Source: a virus
Strand: one strand, 5' to 3'
Virus record (IMG/VR): IMGVR_UViG_3300031227_000506
Location: 1 to 21,498 of that record
DNA length: 21,498 nt
Below the pieces are notes generated by a model. That model was given only the letters and a program-made list of their open reading frames with translations. It made no database searches and was not told the DNA's origin. Of the stretch, positions 12,046 to 21,398 are shown in pieces. The position numbers were made by a program, and so were the translations under genes. The first letter of the stretch is position 1, and each line of letters begins with the position of its first letter.

Positions 12046-13293
12046 TTATGCCACTGCAATAAACATTGACTGATAATTGTGTTTAAGTTTCCATGCTGCC
12101 AACGCCAACGATATTACACAATCGTCATGATACCCGTCTGGCGCGTTATATCTAACGTTCCCCGCTCTTGTCATTTCGTACTGGTATAATTCAAGTTCGT
12201 TTATCATAACCGCTATATCCGGGTACTCTATTTCTTTCTTTTCAATACACACAACTAAATGTTCAATCAACTGTTGTTTCGTCGTGTTCGTAAAACTGTA
12301 CCCGTCAACATCAACATCAGCCGCCTTTACTTGCTCAAGTACCGGATCACCCACGCCCGTTGAATCCATTAATACTGACGCGCCATTATACCTATTTGCT
12401 AAATCTTTTAATCTACCAACCTGTACCGAATAATCTATCTGATTAAACCGTTCAAACGCCACTATCTGAGCAGTACCAACGTCAATTACAACAAACACAC
12501 TAAAATCTGTATGCTTGGCAATATCCCAACCAATAACATACTGCCTGCCGGGTACTGGTTCCTGCAACTCACCTTTAATGCACTGACGAATACCCCGGAA
12601 CACGCCCGCACCATCTTCCAGAAAATCTGCTTCATATTCCTGCTGAAACACGTCACTTGGTAGCGTCTGTCTGGCAAACTCAACTTCACTGTCCGGTATA
12701 TAAGGGTTGCTTATTGTCGGGAACTTGAATGACTCGTATTCTGGATACAACGGATCATTACCCCGTAAATGTTCGTGATAAAACCAGTTACGACCGAATG
12801 GTGTTCCGATAATTAACGCGCGTCCATTAGTATCTGATAGCGTTGGTCGTAACGCTTCTTGCCATGCCGCTTTACGTACTTTTGCAGCCTCGTCAATTAC
12901 AAGAAACTTAACACCATCACCACGTAAATTATCAAACTTCTCAGCTGATAGAAACTGTGTCATTGACCCGTTTTTCCATGTAACCGTAAGATCAGAAAGA
13001 CGTGGAGGGCTTTTGAATGCTGTATTAAAATTGCTTGTCATTGTCCTGTATGGAATTAACGCTTGTCGATATACTGGCGCAACCCACCACGTCATACATC
13101 CGGGAAACTCCCATGCCGCTTTCGCAATCTCATTCACGCCAGCAAGTGTCTTTCCCCACCGCCGCCCACAGGTAGCGAACCTGAACCGTGCTGAACTGTT
13201 ATGTAAAAGAACCTGTTTATCATGCGGAGTATATAACTTAATCCGCTGTTTCTTCGTCTGTTTTTGTTGTCCCGAACTCTGCGATATACTCAT
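12046..13293 (-). CDS. terL: Terminase large subunit
   Basis: 415 residues from ATG 13293; the frame opens further to a TTG at 13323 but this lacks a ribosome site. ATPase motifs: Walker A 'CGRRWGKT' (42-49), Walker B 'FLVIDEA' (130-136, E135 catalytic) and the coupling motif 'IIGTPFG' (161-167). Nuclease motifs of the RNase H-like domain: 'GWDIAKHTD' (D257), 'VLMDSTGVGD' (D310) and 'YHDDC' (D390/D391). All key acidic residues are present, so the protein should translocate and cut DNA into the prohead through the portal. Length is normal. The start lies 56 bases inside the small subunit gene, so the two are translationally coupled. Confidence 0.93.
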   Translation of the reverse strand: MSISQSSGQQKQTKKQRIKLYTPHDKQVLLHNSSARFRFATCGRRWGKTLAGVNEIAKAAWEFPGCMTWWVAPVYRQALIPYRTMTSNFNTAFKSPPRLSDLTVTWKNGSMTQFLSAEKFDNLRGDGVKFLVIDEAAKVRKAAWQEALRPTLSDTNGRALIIGTPFGRNWFYHEHLRGNDPLYPEYESFKFPTISNPYIPDSEVEFARQTLPSDVFQQEYEADFLEDGAGVFRGIRQCIKGELQEPVPGRQYVIGWDIAKHTDFSVFVVIDVGTAQIVAFERFNQIDYSVQVGRLKDLANRYNGASVLMDSTGVGDPVLEQVKAADVDVDGYSFTNTTKQQLIEHLVVCIEKKEIEYPDIAVMINELELYQYEMTRAGNVRYNAPDGYHDDCVISLALAAWKLKHNYQSMFIAVA

Positions 13294-13666
13294 TATTTTC
13301 AATGCGTTCCGTTGCCTCTCCAATAAGCAACAAACCCAGTTTTACTACTTTTTCAACATCCTGCACGGTTACTGGTACCAACCTACCAGCTTTTATCTCC
13401 TCGATCGCTTTACTGATTAACACACTAACAATCTTGCGATAATCAGCTTTTGTTTCTGCAACGGTCTTGATGTTCTTCTTTTCGATTCTCTTTGCTATAG
13501 CTAAATCTCTCAGATGTACTCGTTTACGCCAATCAAATGCTTTTGCCCAATTGAAAATGGAACTTTTCCCAACACCATATTTTGTAGCAGTTGCTTCATA
13601 GCTACGGTCATTCCCATTGCTGTAATAATATTCAAAGGCTTCTATATGTCTGAGTGTTTCTTTCAT
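13238..13666 (-). CDS. terS: Terminase small subunit
   Basis: 142 residues, start in a TAATG overlap with the upstream fragment and with AAGGG upstream. The N-terminus (about 18-50, SYEATATKYGVGKSSIFNWAKAFDWRKR) is a helix-turn-helix of the type found in Gram-positive and Gram-negative phage small terminases ('ATKYGVGKSSI-NWAKAFDW-R'). The centre is a long helical oligomerisation segment and the C-terminus an acidic tail that would contact the large subunit. The gene immediately precedes and overlaps the large subunit gene. Its role is packaging-site recognition. Confidence 0.85.
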   Translation of the reverse strand: MKETLRHIEAFEYYYSNGNDRSYEATATKYGVGKSSIFNWAKAFDWRKRVHLRDLAIAKRIEKKNIKTVAETKADYRKIVSVLISKAIEEIKAGRLVPVTVQDVEKVVKLGLLLIGEATERIENNEYIAEFGTTKTDEETAD

Positions 13667-16926: not shown

Positions 16927-17457
16927 TTATTTATCAGGTATCAATATCTCCCGAATAACTATCTGCGTCCGGGGTTGGTCACTGTACTTTTTCATTACCC
17001 GTTTTAATACAACCTGCTTGTCGTCAGTATAATAGATACCCTCAAGCGCATCCATCAACAACTTTTCGAGGTTATCCAGGTCTGGTCTGGTTGTCTTAAA
17101 TTCCAGCCCGTTACATATAAGAAACGTCTTTACTTTCTTGCTGATGTTTCCAGTCCACGGGAACCAGAATATCACGTCAATGCATACAGGGCCACTAATG
17201 CAAACGCTGCCCGGCTGCCCCTGCTCGTTAGCCTGAGCCAGTGCCAGAACTTTAATAGAGTTACTACGCTTAACAACCTTTGGCTGCGGGTAATAGCCAT
17301 TCTTGCCACCCCTGACGCTCTGTTTCGGCATAGCCTGACCCAAATATTCAAAGGTGAACACCCTGCCCTGCTGTATGTCAGCCGTCAAAAATGCGTCCTC
17401 AATGTCAGTCATTATCTGATTCGGGCCTGGTGGGGTCATGTCATTCTTTGCCATCAT
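16927..17457 (-). CDS. rusA: RusA-type Holliday junction resolvase
   Basis: 176 residues from ATG 17457, with AAGGCGG upstream and a 17-base overlap with the preceding gene. The N-terminal ~30 residues precede the normal RusA start ('FTFEYLGQAMPKQSVR', about 34-49), so the true N-terminus could be later. The diagnostic block is 'RPDLDNLEKLLMDALEG-YYTDDKQV' (about 124-149). D126 and D128 match the first two catalytic Asp of RusA, K132 the essential Lys, and D145/D146 the third acidic site. The family is a homodimeric Mg-dependent enzyme that cuts four-way DNA junctions; phages use it to debranch replicating DNA before packaging. All catalytic residues are present. Confidence 0.88.
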   Translation of the reverse strand: MMAKNDMTPPGPNQIMTDIEDAFLTADIQQGRVFTFEYLGQAMPKQSVRGGKNGYYPQPKVVKRSNSIKVLALAQANEQGQPGSVCISGPVCIDVIFWFPWTGNISKKVKTFLICNGLEFKTTRPDLDNLEKLLMDALEGIYYTDDKQVVLKRVMKKYSDQPRTQIVIREILIPDK

Positions 17458-17836
17458 GCACCGCCTTTTTTTTATCGTGTATGTTGCCCGTTTTTAAAAA
17501 CGTGTATGCAGTGTGACTGTTCAAATGGTCAACCCCTTGCTGGTCATCGTCGTCAGTGACCATGTAAAAGCCGCCGTCATAGAATATAATCAGCACGGGT
17601 TTGTGGTTGTATATGCCTTTGTCGCTTTCGTATAATTTTGCACCAACCCTGTCAACTAACCCAGAAAACTGCACAACGGTTTCTGGTCTGACGTGATACG
17701 CAAAAGGTGCGCCAGAACTGTTTGAAATATAACTGCCTGCTGAAACGTGATTGTATGCTTTTGGTACGATTGCAAGGTTGCCAGACCGCCAATAGCCTTG
17801 TAAATCCATTCCTTTGAACTCAATTATCCTGTCCAT
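17441..17836 (-). CDS. YopX-like protein (first of two)
   Basis: 131 residues, start ATG 17836 with AAGG six bases upstream. The pattern is that of YopX domain proteins of phages: 'IIEFKGMDLQGYWRSGNLAIV' at the start, then 'VRPETVVQFSGLVDRVGAKLYESDKG' (about 49-74), matching the usual 'V-PETVGQ-TGL-D-NG--IYEGD', and a strand 'VLIIFYDGGFYMV'. YopX proteins have a beta-barrel fold and unknown function. A His/Lys-rich C-terminal tail follows. It overlaps the resolvase gene. A second, better-preserved copy is at 19309-19683. Confidence 0.7.
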   Translation of the reverse strand: MDRIIEFKGMDLQGYWRSGNLAIVPKAYNHVSAGSYISNSSGAPFAYHVRPETVVQFSGLVDRVGAKLYESDKGIYNHKPVLIIFYDGGFYMVTDDDDQQGVDHLNSHTAYTFLKTGNIHDKKKAVHDGKE

Positions 17837-17937: not shown

Positions 17938-19263
17938 CTACTGCTGCGTATCTGTTGGTGTATCAACTGGTTCTGAAACCGCTCCGGTTTGAATACTCCC
18001 GTCAACAATATGTATTGATTCGGGTTCGTAACCGCCTACTTTTTCAGTTAACAGTTGGTATTTGTTCTCTGCTGCAATGCTTTCTATCATTGCAATGCCA
18101 TCTTCGTCAAGCAAACTCGCATCACGAACGCAGATTACTTTCAGTTCAGGATTGAGCGCCATTGCCATAGCGCATGACACGCGCAACTTCTCACCAGCAC
18201 TTAACATGCTGTACATTGTGCCGTTGTAGATGACCTTTTGATCTTCAATCGTCAACCCGTCAATCGGCATATTCGCCTCAGCAATAGCCTTTGCTTTCTG
18301 TGCTGCAATCTCTTTCAGTTGGTCAGTGAGCTTTTTACTCTGACTTTCCAGAACAGATACATCATCAGAATAAGTTGCAATATTCTCAGACCGTGCTTCG
18401 TTGGTTGCCTGATTCTTCAACACCTCAGACACCCCTGTAAGCTGTTCTTTCAGCTTGACAATAGTATCTACGCTCTCAATTGCGGCTTTGTCAGTGTTCT
18501 TTACACTAAGCTCAGCAACAATTAAATCATCGTAACGGTCAGTTAGATATACTTTCATACGTTCAAGCTCTGCCTCAGCCTGAGCAATTTTTTCTTTCTG
18601 AACGTCTATTACATCATTGAATACTTTAACATCTTTTTGGCAAGAAAGGTTTTCGTCAGCAACTTCTTCAGCTTTTTCAATCTGGTCAGTAATAGCATTA
18701 ATATCCGGCGTTTCAGCAGGTACATCAGGAATCAACTGCGGTGCATCTTTCAGCCGAACCTTTGCCGTTGTAAGCTCTTTATTGACGCTTGTACGCTCGG
18801 TATATACAGCAGCATATTTCGCGTCAACGTCAGCAGTGTCAAGCCCTGACAGGCTTTTGAGGAACAGCAGTCTATCAGCATCTTTCATGTTGGTAAACTC
18901 TGCCGGATCGAACGATATGAGGTTAATGAATTTATTGAGGAACGTTTGGTTCCCGCCAACAGGTGACATTCCCTCAGCATTAACCACCTCAACCCGGTCA
19001 GTTTTTCCGCCTTGTGTCCATATCCGTTTCACAACATACTCTGTCATTTTTTCGCCGATATGTGCTTTGACTTCTGCCCGTTCCGCTCCGTGCTTGACTG
19101 GATCATCGAGTTTTTTTCCCGTGACTGCAGTATAAAACGCATCAAGAATAGCCGATTTACCAGCCCCGTTCTTACCCGTAAACGTGACATTCTCACCTCC
19201 GGGAATTACAGTGATCTCGGTAATGTTCTTAAAATTTGTGATCTCGATCTTCAATAGGTTCAT
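17938..19263 (-). CDS. SbcC/RecF-like AAA ATPase
   Basis: 441 residues from ATG 19263. An ATG at 19269 is only one base from AAGG, so 19263 (seven bases) is preferred. The start 'LLKIEITNFKNITE' and Walker A 'GKNGAGKS' (30-37) are typical of SMC/RecF/SbcC ATPases that bind DNA ends. Coiled coil fills about 145-335, split near 205 by a single Cys (ENLSCQKD) instead of the CxxC zinc hook of Rad50/SbcC. The signature motif is 'MLSAGEKLRVS' (about 355-365); the Walker B region reads 'VICVRDASLLDEDG', with Arg-Asp where Asp-Glu is usual. This variant is known to me from phage members. No SbcD-type nuclease is in the window. It likely acts in phage recombination or replication. Confidence 0.8.
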   Translation of the reverse strand: MNLLKIEITNFKNITEITVIPGGENVTFTGKNGAGKSAILDAFYTAVTGKKLDDPVKHGAERAEVKAHIGEKMTEYVVKRIWTQGGKTDRVEVVNAEGMSPVGGNQTFLNKFINLISFDPAEFTNMKDADRLLFLKSLSGLDTADVDAKYAAVYTERTSVNKELTTAKVRLKDAPQLIPDVPAETPDINAITDQIEKAEEVADENLSCQKDVKVFNDVIDVQKEKIAQAEAELERMKVYLTDRYDDLIVAELSVKNTDKAAIESVDTIVKLKEQLTGVSEVLKNQATNEARSENIATYSDDVSVLESQSKKLTDQLKEIAAQKAKAIAEANMPIDGLTIEDQKVIYNGTMYSMLSAGEKLRVSCAMAMALNPELKVICVRDASLLDEDGIAMIESIAAENKYQLLTEKVGGYEPESIHIVDGSIQTGAVSEPVDTPTDTQQ

Positions 19264-19308
19264 TTCCATGCCTTTTCTTTTTCTTTGTGTTTAATAATTT
19301 ACAGTAAT

Positions 19309-19683
19309 TTAGCCGATAACCCTGCAAGAACCAACTACATTATAGAGCGGTTCAAGAATATTATCATCATCGTTCTCAATATCAAACTCTGAGCGGTCTT
19401 TATCCCAAAACACAGTAGCCAAGCCATCATCTATTCCCTGAGCGTTAAACCATTCAATAGTGCTGCCCTCATAAATATCAACACTATCAACATCTTTCTT
19501 TCCGGTAAACTGTCCGATAGTCTCACCATAAATTAAAAAACCATCAATGAAATGCAGCTCATTAGTTACAGCCAGCCCAGCAGCTCGTAATATGTTTGGA
19601 ATAGTATTACTGTCTTTCTTGTAATAGCCATACCGCCATTCGTTTGTTTTAATATCCTTGCCTCTAAACTTAATCTCTCTCAT
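19309..19683 (-). CDS. YopX-like protein (second copy)
   Basis: 124 residues. The N-terminus 'MREIKFRGKDIKTNEWRYGYY' is the classic YopX start. 'YGETIGQFTGKKDVDSVDIYEGSTIEW' (about 52-78) is the conserved core, followed by a strand pair ending 'LYNVVGSCRVIG', also typical. The protein is common in phages and prophages of many phyla; its function is not known. A promoter lies about 45 bases upstream, so this is the first gene of the operon with the ATPase gene. Its copy at 17441-17836 is diverged. Confidence 0.85.
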   Translation of the reverse strand: MREIKFRGKDIKTNEWRYGYYKKDSNTIPNILRAAGLAVTNELHFIDGFLIYGETIGQFTGKKDVDSVDIYEGSTIEWFNAQGIDDGLATVFWDKDRSEFDIENDDDNILEPLYNVVGSCRVIG

Positions 19684-19778: not shown

Positions 19779-20411
19779 TTAAAACGGTACATCAAGTACC
19801 TGTTCATCAGTATCACTTTTAACCGTAACAGCTATCTCTCGTATTTTCCCATACTCACCAAACCTCGGATTTCGTTTAATTCTGATCATATCAATTCCAG
19901 TGACTTTCTTTATTACACGGTTACCCTCAGTGACTTCTTCCATCCGGGCAACGATTGTATGTTTATTCTTTGCATCAATCAACCTGCCGCCTGAGATTTT
20001 GAGTTTATTATCACTTATCAGCTTACCCATCACATCAAACAGGTCTGCATGACTGGCTTTATATTTATCTGCTGCCTTGCAATTACAGCGGAAACTCTGG
20101 CTACCACCGCGCCCCTCAAAAACACAGCGAATACTTAATATTCCAGACCCATCACAACGCACACAATTAACGCGCTCAATCCCCATATTATACTTTGGCA
20201 TTGCTCCATAAAGCCGCCCGAAGTCCACTATTTTCGGCATATGTATGAGCTGATGTTTCGCATTTCTGCATAATTTAGCCCACATATGAGATGGTAAATG
20301 CTTGTACACATCGAAATAATCATCAAGTATACACTGTTCATCCATCATTTTCGGTCTACTGAAATACACACACAACGTTTCAAACTCTATTGCAAACTCT
20401 CTAAACAGCAT
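19779..20411 (-). CDS. Zinc-finger replication partner (possible helicase loader)
   Basis: 210 residues, GGAG seven bases before ATG 20411, start inside the initiator gene (11-base overlap), so the two are coupled. Residues about 30-70 ('DDYFDVYKHLPSHMWAKLCRNAKHQLIHMPKIVDFGRLYG') resemble the N-terminal helical module of phage replication proteins downstream of the initiator, such as helicase loaders. A Cys cluster (C83, C86, C109, C111) within 'CVRCDGSG...FRCNC' is a DnaJ-like zinc ribbon. The C-terminal half is beta-rich and basic. Lambda has O then P in the same order; a loader role is inferred from this. It could instead be a structural zinc protein of the replisome. Confidence 0.55.
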   Translation of the reverse strand: MLFREFAIEFETLCVYFSRPKMMDEQCILDDYFDVYKHLPSHMWAKLCRNAKHQLIHMPKIVDFGRLYGAMPKYNMGIERVNCVRCDGSGILSIRCVFEGRGGSQSFRCNCKAADKYKASHADLFDVMGKLISDNKLKISGGRLIDAKNKHTIVARMEEVTEGNRVIKKVTGIDMIRIKRNPRFGEYGKIREIAVTVKSDTDEQVLDVPF

Positions 20412-21234
20412 CGTATTTCTCCGTTAAATTTTTTATGACTTGTTTTCTTTTTGCCTCATCTGCACTAACTGATTTTGCACTCCCACCTCTTTCTTGCCCT
20501 TTTGACATCCAGTTTGTTAGGAACCGGAAATAATTCTTCTTACGCTTCTTCGGGTTTGCTATAAGCCACAACCCAGCCCGATCAATAGAATTGTCAACAT
20601 CAACTGCTGGGAATGCGGTGTACCATTTTTGCAGTATTTTTTCTGATATTCCAGTAAACGATCCTGTGTCAAAATCAAATTTCACCTGCTCTGTAACCGG
20701 AACTTTGTCCGGTTCGGAGCTACTCTTAGTATTTTCTTTATTCTTTATTTCTTTATTCTTATCATTCTTGTTATATATATTGTGCCCATCAGAATCCGTT
20801 CGTTGCCCGTTCGTTGCCCGTTCGTAGTCCCGTTCGTTGTGCCCTTCGTAGTTTTTCGGGGTCTGGTAAAACACGTAGTTTGAGATACTTACCTTAAACC
20901 CGTGAGTTACCTTCGTTGTGCCCACCATAGACCCGTTCGTTGCCCGTTCGTAGTCCCGTTCGTGCGTCCTTCGTAACCAGTCAAAAACTGCACGTACTTG
21001 TTTACAGCTTGGCTTCTCAACCCTATACCCAACGCGCCACGATACAGCGTCACAAACCTTTGCAATAGTAGTCACTAACTCACCACGGTTCAGGTTCTTA
21101 TATTCTTCATGTTGAACAGTCAATAGCAACCACACCCACACTTTCAGGTATAACGGAGGTTTTGCCATGATTTCGCTTTCAATGAGTTTTCTACTGAGCA
21201 AGATATAACCGCCGGGGATTAATGGTTTATACAC
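20401..21234 (-). CDS. Phage replication initiator / replisome organizer
   Basis: 277 residues. Start is GTG 21234, with GAGGGG about eight bases upstream. The N-terminal domain (about 8-124: 'GGYILLSRKLIESEIMAKPP', 'WLLLTVQHEEYKNLNRGELVTT', 'CKQVRAVFDWLRR', 'HGFKVSISNYVFYQ') is the winged-helix domain of phage replisome organizers and O-like initiators. A polar Lys/Asn linker (about 145-180) follows. The C-terminal domain (about 193-277) has 'LQKWYTAFP', 'NPKKRKKNYFRFLTNWM', a segment typical of O/DnaD-like initiators that contact the helicase loader. Residues 92-101 and 134-143 are the same decapeptide, ERDYERATNG, encoded by the iteron arrays. The protein probably binds these repeats in its own gene. 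Confidence 0.8.
   Translation of the reverse strand: MYKPLIPGGYILLSRKLIESEIMAKPPLYLKVWVWLLLTVQHEEYKNLNRGELVTTIAKVCDAVSWRVGYRVEKPSCKQVRAVFDWLRRTHERDYERATNGSMVGTTKVTHGFKVSISNYVFYQTPKNYEGHNERDYERATNGQRTDSDGHNIYNKNDKNKEIKNKENTKSSSEPDKVPVTEQVKFDFDTGSFTGISEKILQKWYTAFPAVDVDNSIDRAGLWLIANPKKRKKNYFRFLTNWMSKGQERGGSAKSVSADEAKRKQVIKNLTEKYDAV
20806..20837. repeat. 32-base direct repeat, copy 1 (iterons)
   Basis: Identical at all 32 positions to 20932-20963, 126 bases away (exactly 42 codons). It holds three CCGTTCGT octamers and encodes the decapeptide ERDYERATNG. Part of the lower iteron cluster (20796-20849). Confidence 0.9.
20932..20963. repeat. 32-base direct repeat, copy 2 (iterons)
   Basis: Identical to 20806-20837. 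It encodes the same decapeptide in the region that would be the wing of the winged-helix domain, where relatives are usually shorter. Part of the upper iteron cluster (20933-20974). Confidence 0.9.
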
Positions 21235-21252
21235 AAATCAACCCCCTCACCG

Positions 21253-21332
21253 CACAAAAAAGCCCCCAACCAGCTAGTACAGAAAGTATAGGGACAGAAT
21301 CCCTGATAGGTTTCATACTGGATAGGGGCTTT
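21253..21332 (-). terminator. Terminator with nested stems ahead of the initiator gene
   Basis: On the minus strand, AAAGCCCC (21332-21325) pairs with GGGGCTTT (21266-21259), followed by more Ts and a G. Nested inside are AGTAT/ATACT (21315-21319 with 21285-21289) and AGGGA/TCCCT (21290-21294 with 21300-21304, loop CAGAA). It ends about six bases before the initiator ribosome site, so it can act as an attenuator for that gene as well as the end of the upstream operon. Confidence 0.65.
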
Positions 21333-21361
21333 GACATTTTATATTGTTCCTTTCTGTACTA
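21275..21361. repeat. 12-base inverted repeat bounding an 87-base structured segment
   Basis: TAGTACAGAAAG at 21275-21286 and its exact reverse complement at 21350-21361. One arm lies outside and the other inside the terminator stem, so the two pairings are interleaved: they form either a pseudoknot or two alternative folds. The segment also has three (T/G)ATAGG copies (21287, 21305, 21321). Confidence 0.7.
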
Positions 21362-21369
21362 TTTAAATG

Positions 21370-21398
21370 AACTTACAACATCTTTACAGCCTTGTCAA
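21370..21398 (-). promoter_or_regulatory. Candidate promoter for the replication genes
   Basis: On the minus strand TTGACA (21398-21393), a 17-base spacer, then TAAGTT (21375-21370). The -35 is perfect but the -10 is poor (first, second and last bases match). A transcript from here would run through the structured leader into the initiator gene. Confidence 0.35.

Follow-up and report, generated by a model that had tools for sequence, protein, structure and literature searches.

Does the gene for a phage replication initiator also contain the site at which replication begins? The question is raised by a 21,498-bp virus record (referred to here as the window, meaning the whole stretch of DNA analysed), which is possibly a fragment and which carries terminase, portal, head, tail and RusA-type genes. 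A first-pass annotation had proposed a lambda-like origin embedded in an initiator gene, built of seven exact octamers and three variants in two clusters plus one lone site. In-gene origins of this kind are textbook knowledge for phages lambda and SPP1.

The initiator gene and its predicted product

The gene is encoded on the minus strand, with the sequence GAGGGGG 7 nt upstream of its GTG start. The gene and the predicted parts of its product are as follows:

20401..21234, minus strand: initiator (replisome-organizer) gene, 277 aa, GTG start (ORF list and protein matches)
20845..21234, minus strand: winged-helix domain, predicted to bind DNA, residues 1-130 (AlphaFold2; alignment of 33 relatives)
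20971..21006, minus strand: putative recognition helix, residues 77-88 (AlphaFold2 model; the codon for K78 is 21001-21003)
20455..20709, minus strand: putative C-terminal effector domain, residues 176-260 (homology to Pseudomonas phage replication initiation proteins)

The N-terminal half of the protein was found to be 46.9% identical (E 4e-30) to a Staphylococcus phage StB20-like replication protein, while residues 176-260 matched the C-terminal part of Pseudomonas phage replication initiation proteins (35%, E 4e-4). PHROG 2514, annotated as 'DnaD-like helicase loader', matched the protein with an E of 2.4e-8 over residues 5-149 (counted from an ATG at 21168) and matched relatives down to E 1e-57. 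The window protein had no family in Pfam or NCBIfam, the DnaD domain (TIGR01446) that is present in the StB20-like protein is absent from it, and a fold search of the PDB returned generic winged helices only, none with E <0.001. In an AlphaFold2 model built with 38 relatives, pLDDT was mostly >90 over residues 21-128, with a dip at residues 91-100, and the wing was formed by strands 104-109 and 112-117; model confidence was low over the C-terminal domain (residues 176-260). The predicted winged helix and the PHROG 2514 match bear out the earlier description of the product as a winged-helix replisome organizer.

The leader of the gene (21245-21375, minus strand) contains a strong hairpin (z -2.4), GCCCCUAUCCAG ... 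CUGGUUGGGGGC, with UUUUUU after it; the GAGGGGG ribosome-binding site and the GTG start come immediately next. The hairpin had no match in Rfam and is a candidate intrinsic terminator or conditional attenuator of the initiator.

An array of ten phased sites beside an A+T-rich tract

The octamer CCGTTCGT (plus strand) was found seven times in the window, starting at 20796, 20807, 20818, 20830, 20933, 20944 and 20956, compared with 0.46 expected and a maximum of 2 in 100 dinucleotide shuffles of the window; with the whole window counted, all seven copies are confined to 20796-20963. Three CCTTCGT variants start at 20843, 20910 and 20968, and on the minus strand, which encodes the gene, the sites read ACGAACGG (seven) or ACGAAGG (three). 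The repeats are therefore present as first described and far above the level in shuffled DNA, and the start-to-start spacings (11, 12, 11, 24, 67, 12, 12, 11 and 11 bp) confirm the reported phasing of 11-12 bases. Counted from the gene start, the sites lie at 260, 271, 283, 294, 318, 385, 397, 409, 420 and 431. The site at 20910 had been regarded as standing alone; as its distance of 24 bp to the first group makes two steps of 12 and so keeps the phase of that group, the array is better described as 5 + 5 sites. These sites, with offsets measured from the wing codons (T-T-K-x-T), and the adjoining tract are listed below:

20967..20974, minus strand: iteron site 1, offset -58, ACGAAGGA, offset kept in relatives
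20956..20963, minus strand: iteron site 2, offset -47, ACGAACGG
20944..20951, minus strand: iteron site 3, offset -35, ACGAACGG
20933..20940, minus strand: iteron site 4, offset -24, ACGAACGG
20909..20916, minus strand: iteron site 5 (the supposed lone site), offset 0, ACGAAGGT, encodes wing strand T-K-V
20842..20849, minus strand: iteron site 6, offset +67, ACGAAGGG
20830..20837, minus strand: iteron site 7, offset +79, ACGAACGG
20818..20825, minus strand: iteron site 8, offset +91, ACGAACGG
20807..20814, minus strand: iteron site 9, offset +102, ACGAACGG
20796..20803, minus strand: iteron site 10, offset +113, ACGAACGG
20727..20780, no strand: A+T-rich tract, candidate DNA unwinding element, 85.2% A+T, encodes an N/K-rich linker

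The single iteron words named in this analysis are ACGAACGG, ACGAAGGT, ACGAAAGC and ACGAAGAC. The tract at 20727-20780 is the most A+T-rich 54-mer of the 21.5 kb window, in agreement with the 54 bases of about 85% A+T originally noted beside the array.

The ten sites occupy all three codon phases of ORF 20401-21234, and the same octamer encodes ERD/ERA, TNG or QRT according to frame. In 5000 synonymous-codon shuffles of the window gene, which leave the protein unchanged, the octamer occurred 1.03 times on average (maximum 5). In the AlphaFold2 model the first site group corresponds to a loop (residues 89-103), and the second group, with the A+T tract, to a low-confidence linker (residues 131-182). 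According to the model, the iterons would encode stretches in which the protein can vary, namely the loop before the wing and a disordered linker, plus one wing strand.

Site positions are conserved among relatives

A DNA-level search for phages carrying the gene gave no match, and single-sequence scans of viral contigs found none for the window protein and three loci for one relative (L039); alignment-based scans were therefore needed, and these covered genomes of Bacillota and others as well as IMG/VR contigs. With copies merged, the set comprised 58 core genes (<90% mutual identity) and 40 distant ones, which in the N-terminal domain are 34-57% and 24-40% identical to the window protein, respectively. 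Some relatives come from prophages, including those of Bacillus and Oceanobacillus; L012 is from Oceanobacillus sojae and L016 from Sporosarcina limicola. Surveys of 399-400 genomes each returned few members, mostly ones already known, so the family appears to be uncommon. Discovery of exact repeats gene by gene, against synonymous shuffles, gave strong results for the window and some relatives and was noisy elsewhere; as poly-A words win in A+T-rich genes, it was replaced by a positional test of the CGAA core.

The window's ten offsets were found to be the ten commonest CGAA offsets of the core family. With the window excluded, the 57 core genes carried 280 CGAA at these offsets compared with 101.7 (sd 7.9, maximum 125) in 300 synonymous shuffles, while displacement of the offsets by 1 base gave 18-22 and displacement by 2-6 bases gave 1-6. 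The 40 distant relatives carried 86 CGAA (33.6 when shuffled, sd 5.0), with a small drift in offset (90, 101, -45, -34), and in relatives, too, the core recurs across all three codon phases. In 46 of 56 genes (about 4 expected) the A+T maximum of the gene begins 115-175 bases past the wing site, and codon choice within the tract is slightly richer in A+T than in shuffles (0.758 vs 0.725). Site positions and A+T tract are thus kept in relatives while codons and repeat letters change. No phased CGAA array (at least 4 linked sites) was detected outside the gene in 825 kb of the relatives' loci, which are parts of each genome.

When four linked CGAA sites were strictly required, 26 of the 58 genes qualified, so many arrays are degenerate. 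In the CGAA search L022 was found to keep the gene without a recognisable array, and the array of L021 to have a different core. The exact window octamer is rare among relatives. The suggestion that both octamer and two-cluster geometry may be new consequently holds for the letters of ACGAACGG, which are peculiar to this phage, but not for the geometry, which is common to the family.

A second family copy in a Cloacimonadota genome (L115, G006:C17:51132-51572) was seen in the genome search to have an in-frame TAG; it has few CGAA sites and may be a decaying prophage copy.

Repeat letters co-vary with a residue of the putative recognition helix

Bases 6-8 of the iteron vary among phages and tend toward agreement inside one phage, the letters after CGAA being AGC, GGG or GGT, or GAC in relatives and CGG in the window. 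Agreement at base 6 was 0.60 between different sites of one gene and 0.37 when one and the same site was compared across genes; at base 8 the corresponding values were 0.58 and 0.34. Across all alignment columns, mutual information with the base 8 class was highest at residue 78 (0.81 bits), which is outside every iteron and near the N-terminus of the modelled recognition helix; residue 109 reached 0.77 bits, but is encoded by the wing iteron. The sites used here were CGAA-bearing sites at canonical offsets only, so arrays with other cores are not represented.

Of 17 genes with K or R at residue 78, 16 had G or T at base 8, and of 34 genes with other residues, 33 had A or C (Fisher p 4e-11, kinship ignored); the K/R grouping was seen in the data before being tested. 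With D at residue 78, base 8 was C in 88% of sites; with K/R it was G in 46%, T in 32% and C in 4%; with S, T, N, A, H or P it was mixed. Lysine and arginine donors facing keto bases, and aspartate facing cytosine, are chemically sensible pairings.

In a test of correlated evolution, residue 78 was the best column outside the iterons (likelihood ratio 40.2, p 4e-8); recognition-helix residues 82 and 81 also scored high, 82 being second in this test. The tree was made without the helix and iteron-encoded columns, leaving 92 columns, and is poorly resolved: the best tree requires 8 iteron-class and 7 residue-class changes, while well-supported branches force only 3 iteron-class changes. A strict test of independent pairs gave 2 that agree, 0 that oppose and 1 without change, which is not significant. 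The covariation of base 8 and residue 78 is evidence, drawn from sequence comparison, that each initiator would read its own repeats.

The N-terminal domain is joined to different C-terminal domains

Behind the shared winged helix and array, the following C-terminal domains were found:

DnaD: StB20-like protein
Lambda-O-like: L012, L020 and L030
PHROG 428/1163 type: L024 and L028
PHROG 678 type: L041 and L042
Pseudomonas-phage type: window protein

A DnaB-like helicase or DnaC-like loader gene lies closely downstream in four relatives (DnaC-like loader in L012; DnaB-like helicase in L020, L024 and L030), RusA was recognised downstream in L053, and the other relatives had no family match downstream. 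The StB20-like gene is flanked by ssb, RecT and RusA genes. Domain shuffling has been described for Oenococcus phage replisome organizers, where N-termini are divergent and a C-terminal DnaD domain is common (PMC12403621). The swapped C-terminal domains found here suggest that these initiators consist of an address cassette and an interchangeable part that recruits helicase.

Several neighbours of the window gene were also noted. A 210-aa protein (19782-20411, minus strand), the gene of which overlaps the end of the initiator gene, had no family match and shows by eye a zinc-binding-like motif, CxxCxGxG...CxC; by position it is a candidate helicase loader or adaptor. Between the initiator and RusA genes stands a gene (17938-19269, minus strand) for a 443-aa protein with an AAA_23/SMC-like domain (PHROG 1499, weak SbcC-like match). 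Two short genes (19309-19683 and 17441-17836, both minus strand) match PHROG 98 / 8684, of unknown function; their proteins are weakly alike (27%, E 2e-4), and the genes appear to be divergent duplicates flanking the SbcC/AAA-like gene. The nearest named relatives of the large terminase (12046-13323, minus strand) belong to phages that infect Tunturiibacter (40%), Thermus and Halorubrum, and for this reason the host of the phage may not be a Firmicute; the N-terminal domain type of the initiator is found mostly in Firmicutes.

Comparison with known origins

In lambda, the O protein binds direct repeats located centrally in gene O, next to an A+T tract, and the origins of Stx phages are alike (PMC7466680). 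In SPP1, gp38 binds direct repeats of oriL, which with an A+T unwinding element lies within gene 38 (PMC6316719). The window has the features of this plan, repeats within the initiator gene and an adjoining A+T tract. The differences from lambda lie in the array and in the protein. The lambda iterons, annotated at 39034-39118, number four and are 18 bp long; those of the window number ten, are 8 bp long and form two groups of five with a spacing of about 11.5 bp. The window protein matches no O-like family (lambda O family, PHROG 277) and only PHROG 2514, which lambda O reaches via residues 96-297 and the window protein via its N-terminal half; lambda-O-like families are matched by the C-terminal halves of L012, L020 and L030. 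The proposal of a lambda-like in-gene origin thus stands for the plan (repeats, A+T tract and relatives), but the N-terminal domain is not that of lambda O by sequence.

SPP1 is a phage of Gram-positive bacteria, and its oriL, compared here by description, likewise has repeats and an A+T element inside the initiator gene; it differs in having a second origin, oriR, whereas no second array was found in the stretches of related loci examined. The StB20-like protein (PHROG 2514 / PHROG 186 replisome organizers) has a homologous N-terminal winged helix, and its gene has CGAA sites at matching offsets, mainly of the ACGAAGAC type; its C-terminal half is DnaD, unlike that of the window protein, which is shared with Pseudomonas phage initiators. 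The Rep protein of Lactococcus phage TP901-1, annotated as an experimentally supported replication protein, is in PHROG 186 with the StB20-like protein, and no CGAA run was seen by eye in the part of its gene inspected.

Alternative explanations

The repeats could in principle reflect the protein, as a duplicated disordered linker (NERDYERATNG etc.) with no DNA function, and indeed the two groups encode alike peptides, HERDYERATNG and NERDYERATNGQ, both in a low-confidence loop and linker. Against this, one octamer is read in three frames (ERD/ERA, TNG and QRT), synonymous shuffles lose the sites, relatives keep the site positions while the peptide changes, and the letters co-vary with a helix outside the repeats, so that this explanation is already largely refuted and is very improbable. 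Since relatives keep CGAA at the same ten offsets in three phases, the array is, as far as sequence comparison can tell, a conserved DNA element and not a protein repeat.

Such an element need not be an origin. It could be a control site at which the initiator binds for autoregulation, incompatibility or replication handcuffing, with the start located elsewhere; in SPP1 the in-gene origin is accompanied by another (PMC6316719), no start is visible in the sequence, and GC skew does not change sign. Operators are rarely found mid-gene, though, an A+T tract is conserved next to the array, and 825 kb of related loci (parts of each genome) held no second array, so a control site is considered unlikely. 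A partition centromere bound by a TubR-like winged-helix protein would agree with the best fold match in the PDB, which is the plasmid partition protein TubR (a weak match, E 0.15, probability 0.93), and with the recording of some relatives as plasmids. The TubR match, however, reflects a winged-helix fold of a generic kind; neither the window nor the relatives examined contained a recognisable TubZ-like partner, the surrounding genes are for recombination and helicases, and the C-terminal domains match replication proteins, all of which leaves a centromere highly unlikely. The segment is instead very probably the replication origin of the phage, embedded in its own initiator gene, given the conserved site positions, the co-varying letters and the plan of repeats and A+T tract that it shares with lambda ori and SPP1 oriL.

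A change in GC skew at the gene had been put forward as a check on the origin. As only about 260 bp of the window lie upstream of the initiator gene, skew was read in relatives, and no sign change was seen at the gene in 34 of them, the right side being somewhat stronger in most. Since most of the flanking genes share one orientation, this result carries little weight.

Proposed mechanism and implications

If the segment is the origin, copies of the initiator would bind the ten phased ACGAA-type iterons via the N-terminal winged helix and form a nucleoprotein array of 5 + 5 sites, upon which the adjoining A+T tract (20727-20780) would melt and the C-terminal domain would then recruit helicase or helicase loader; we infer this sequence of binding, melting, helicase recruitment or loading and replication start. 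The gene would carry both a reader and its own address, and evolutionary change of the address would be accompanied by change in the recognition helix.

In-gene iteron origins are known, and what appears to be new is the cassette with co-varying specificity. A literature search, for which most subscription journals were outside reach, found no paper on origins of this initiator family, and the accessible literature did not contain the fixed ten-site, three-phase geometry, the concerted letters, the link between residue 78 and base 8, or a cassette with multiple C-terminal domains. Taken together, we lean slightly towards a mobile, self-addressed initiation cassette of winged helix and ten-site array at fixed positions in three codon phases, with specificity evolving in concert by a readable code (K/R at residue 78 with G/T at base 8, D with C), which has been shuffled before unrelated, helicase-recruiting C-terminal domains in phages of several bacterial phyla.

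The matching of initiator and origin during divergence is hard to study in single phages. About 100 natural variants, in which DNA word and helix residue change together, make the coevolution of initiator and origin directly testable. The family also provides a rule by which origins of uncultured phages could be sought in sequence, namely the motif xCGAA at each of ten set distances from the wing codons, and if the cassette reading is true, both origin and specificity would be predictable from sequence for phages as yet unseen.
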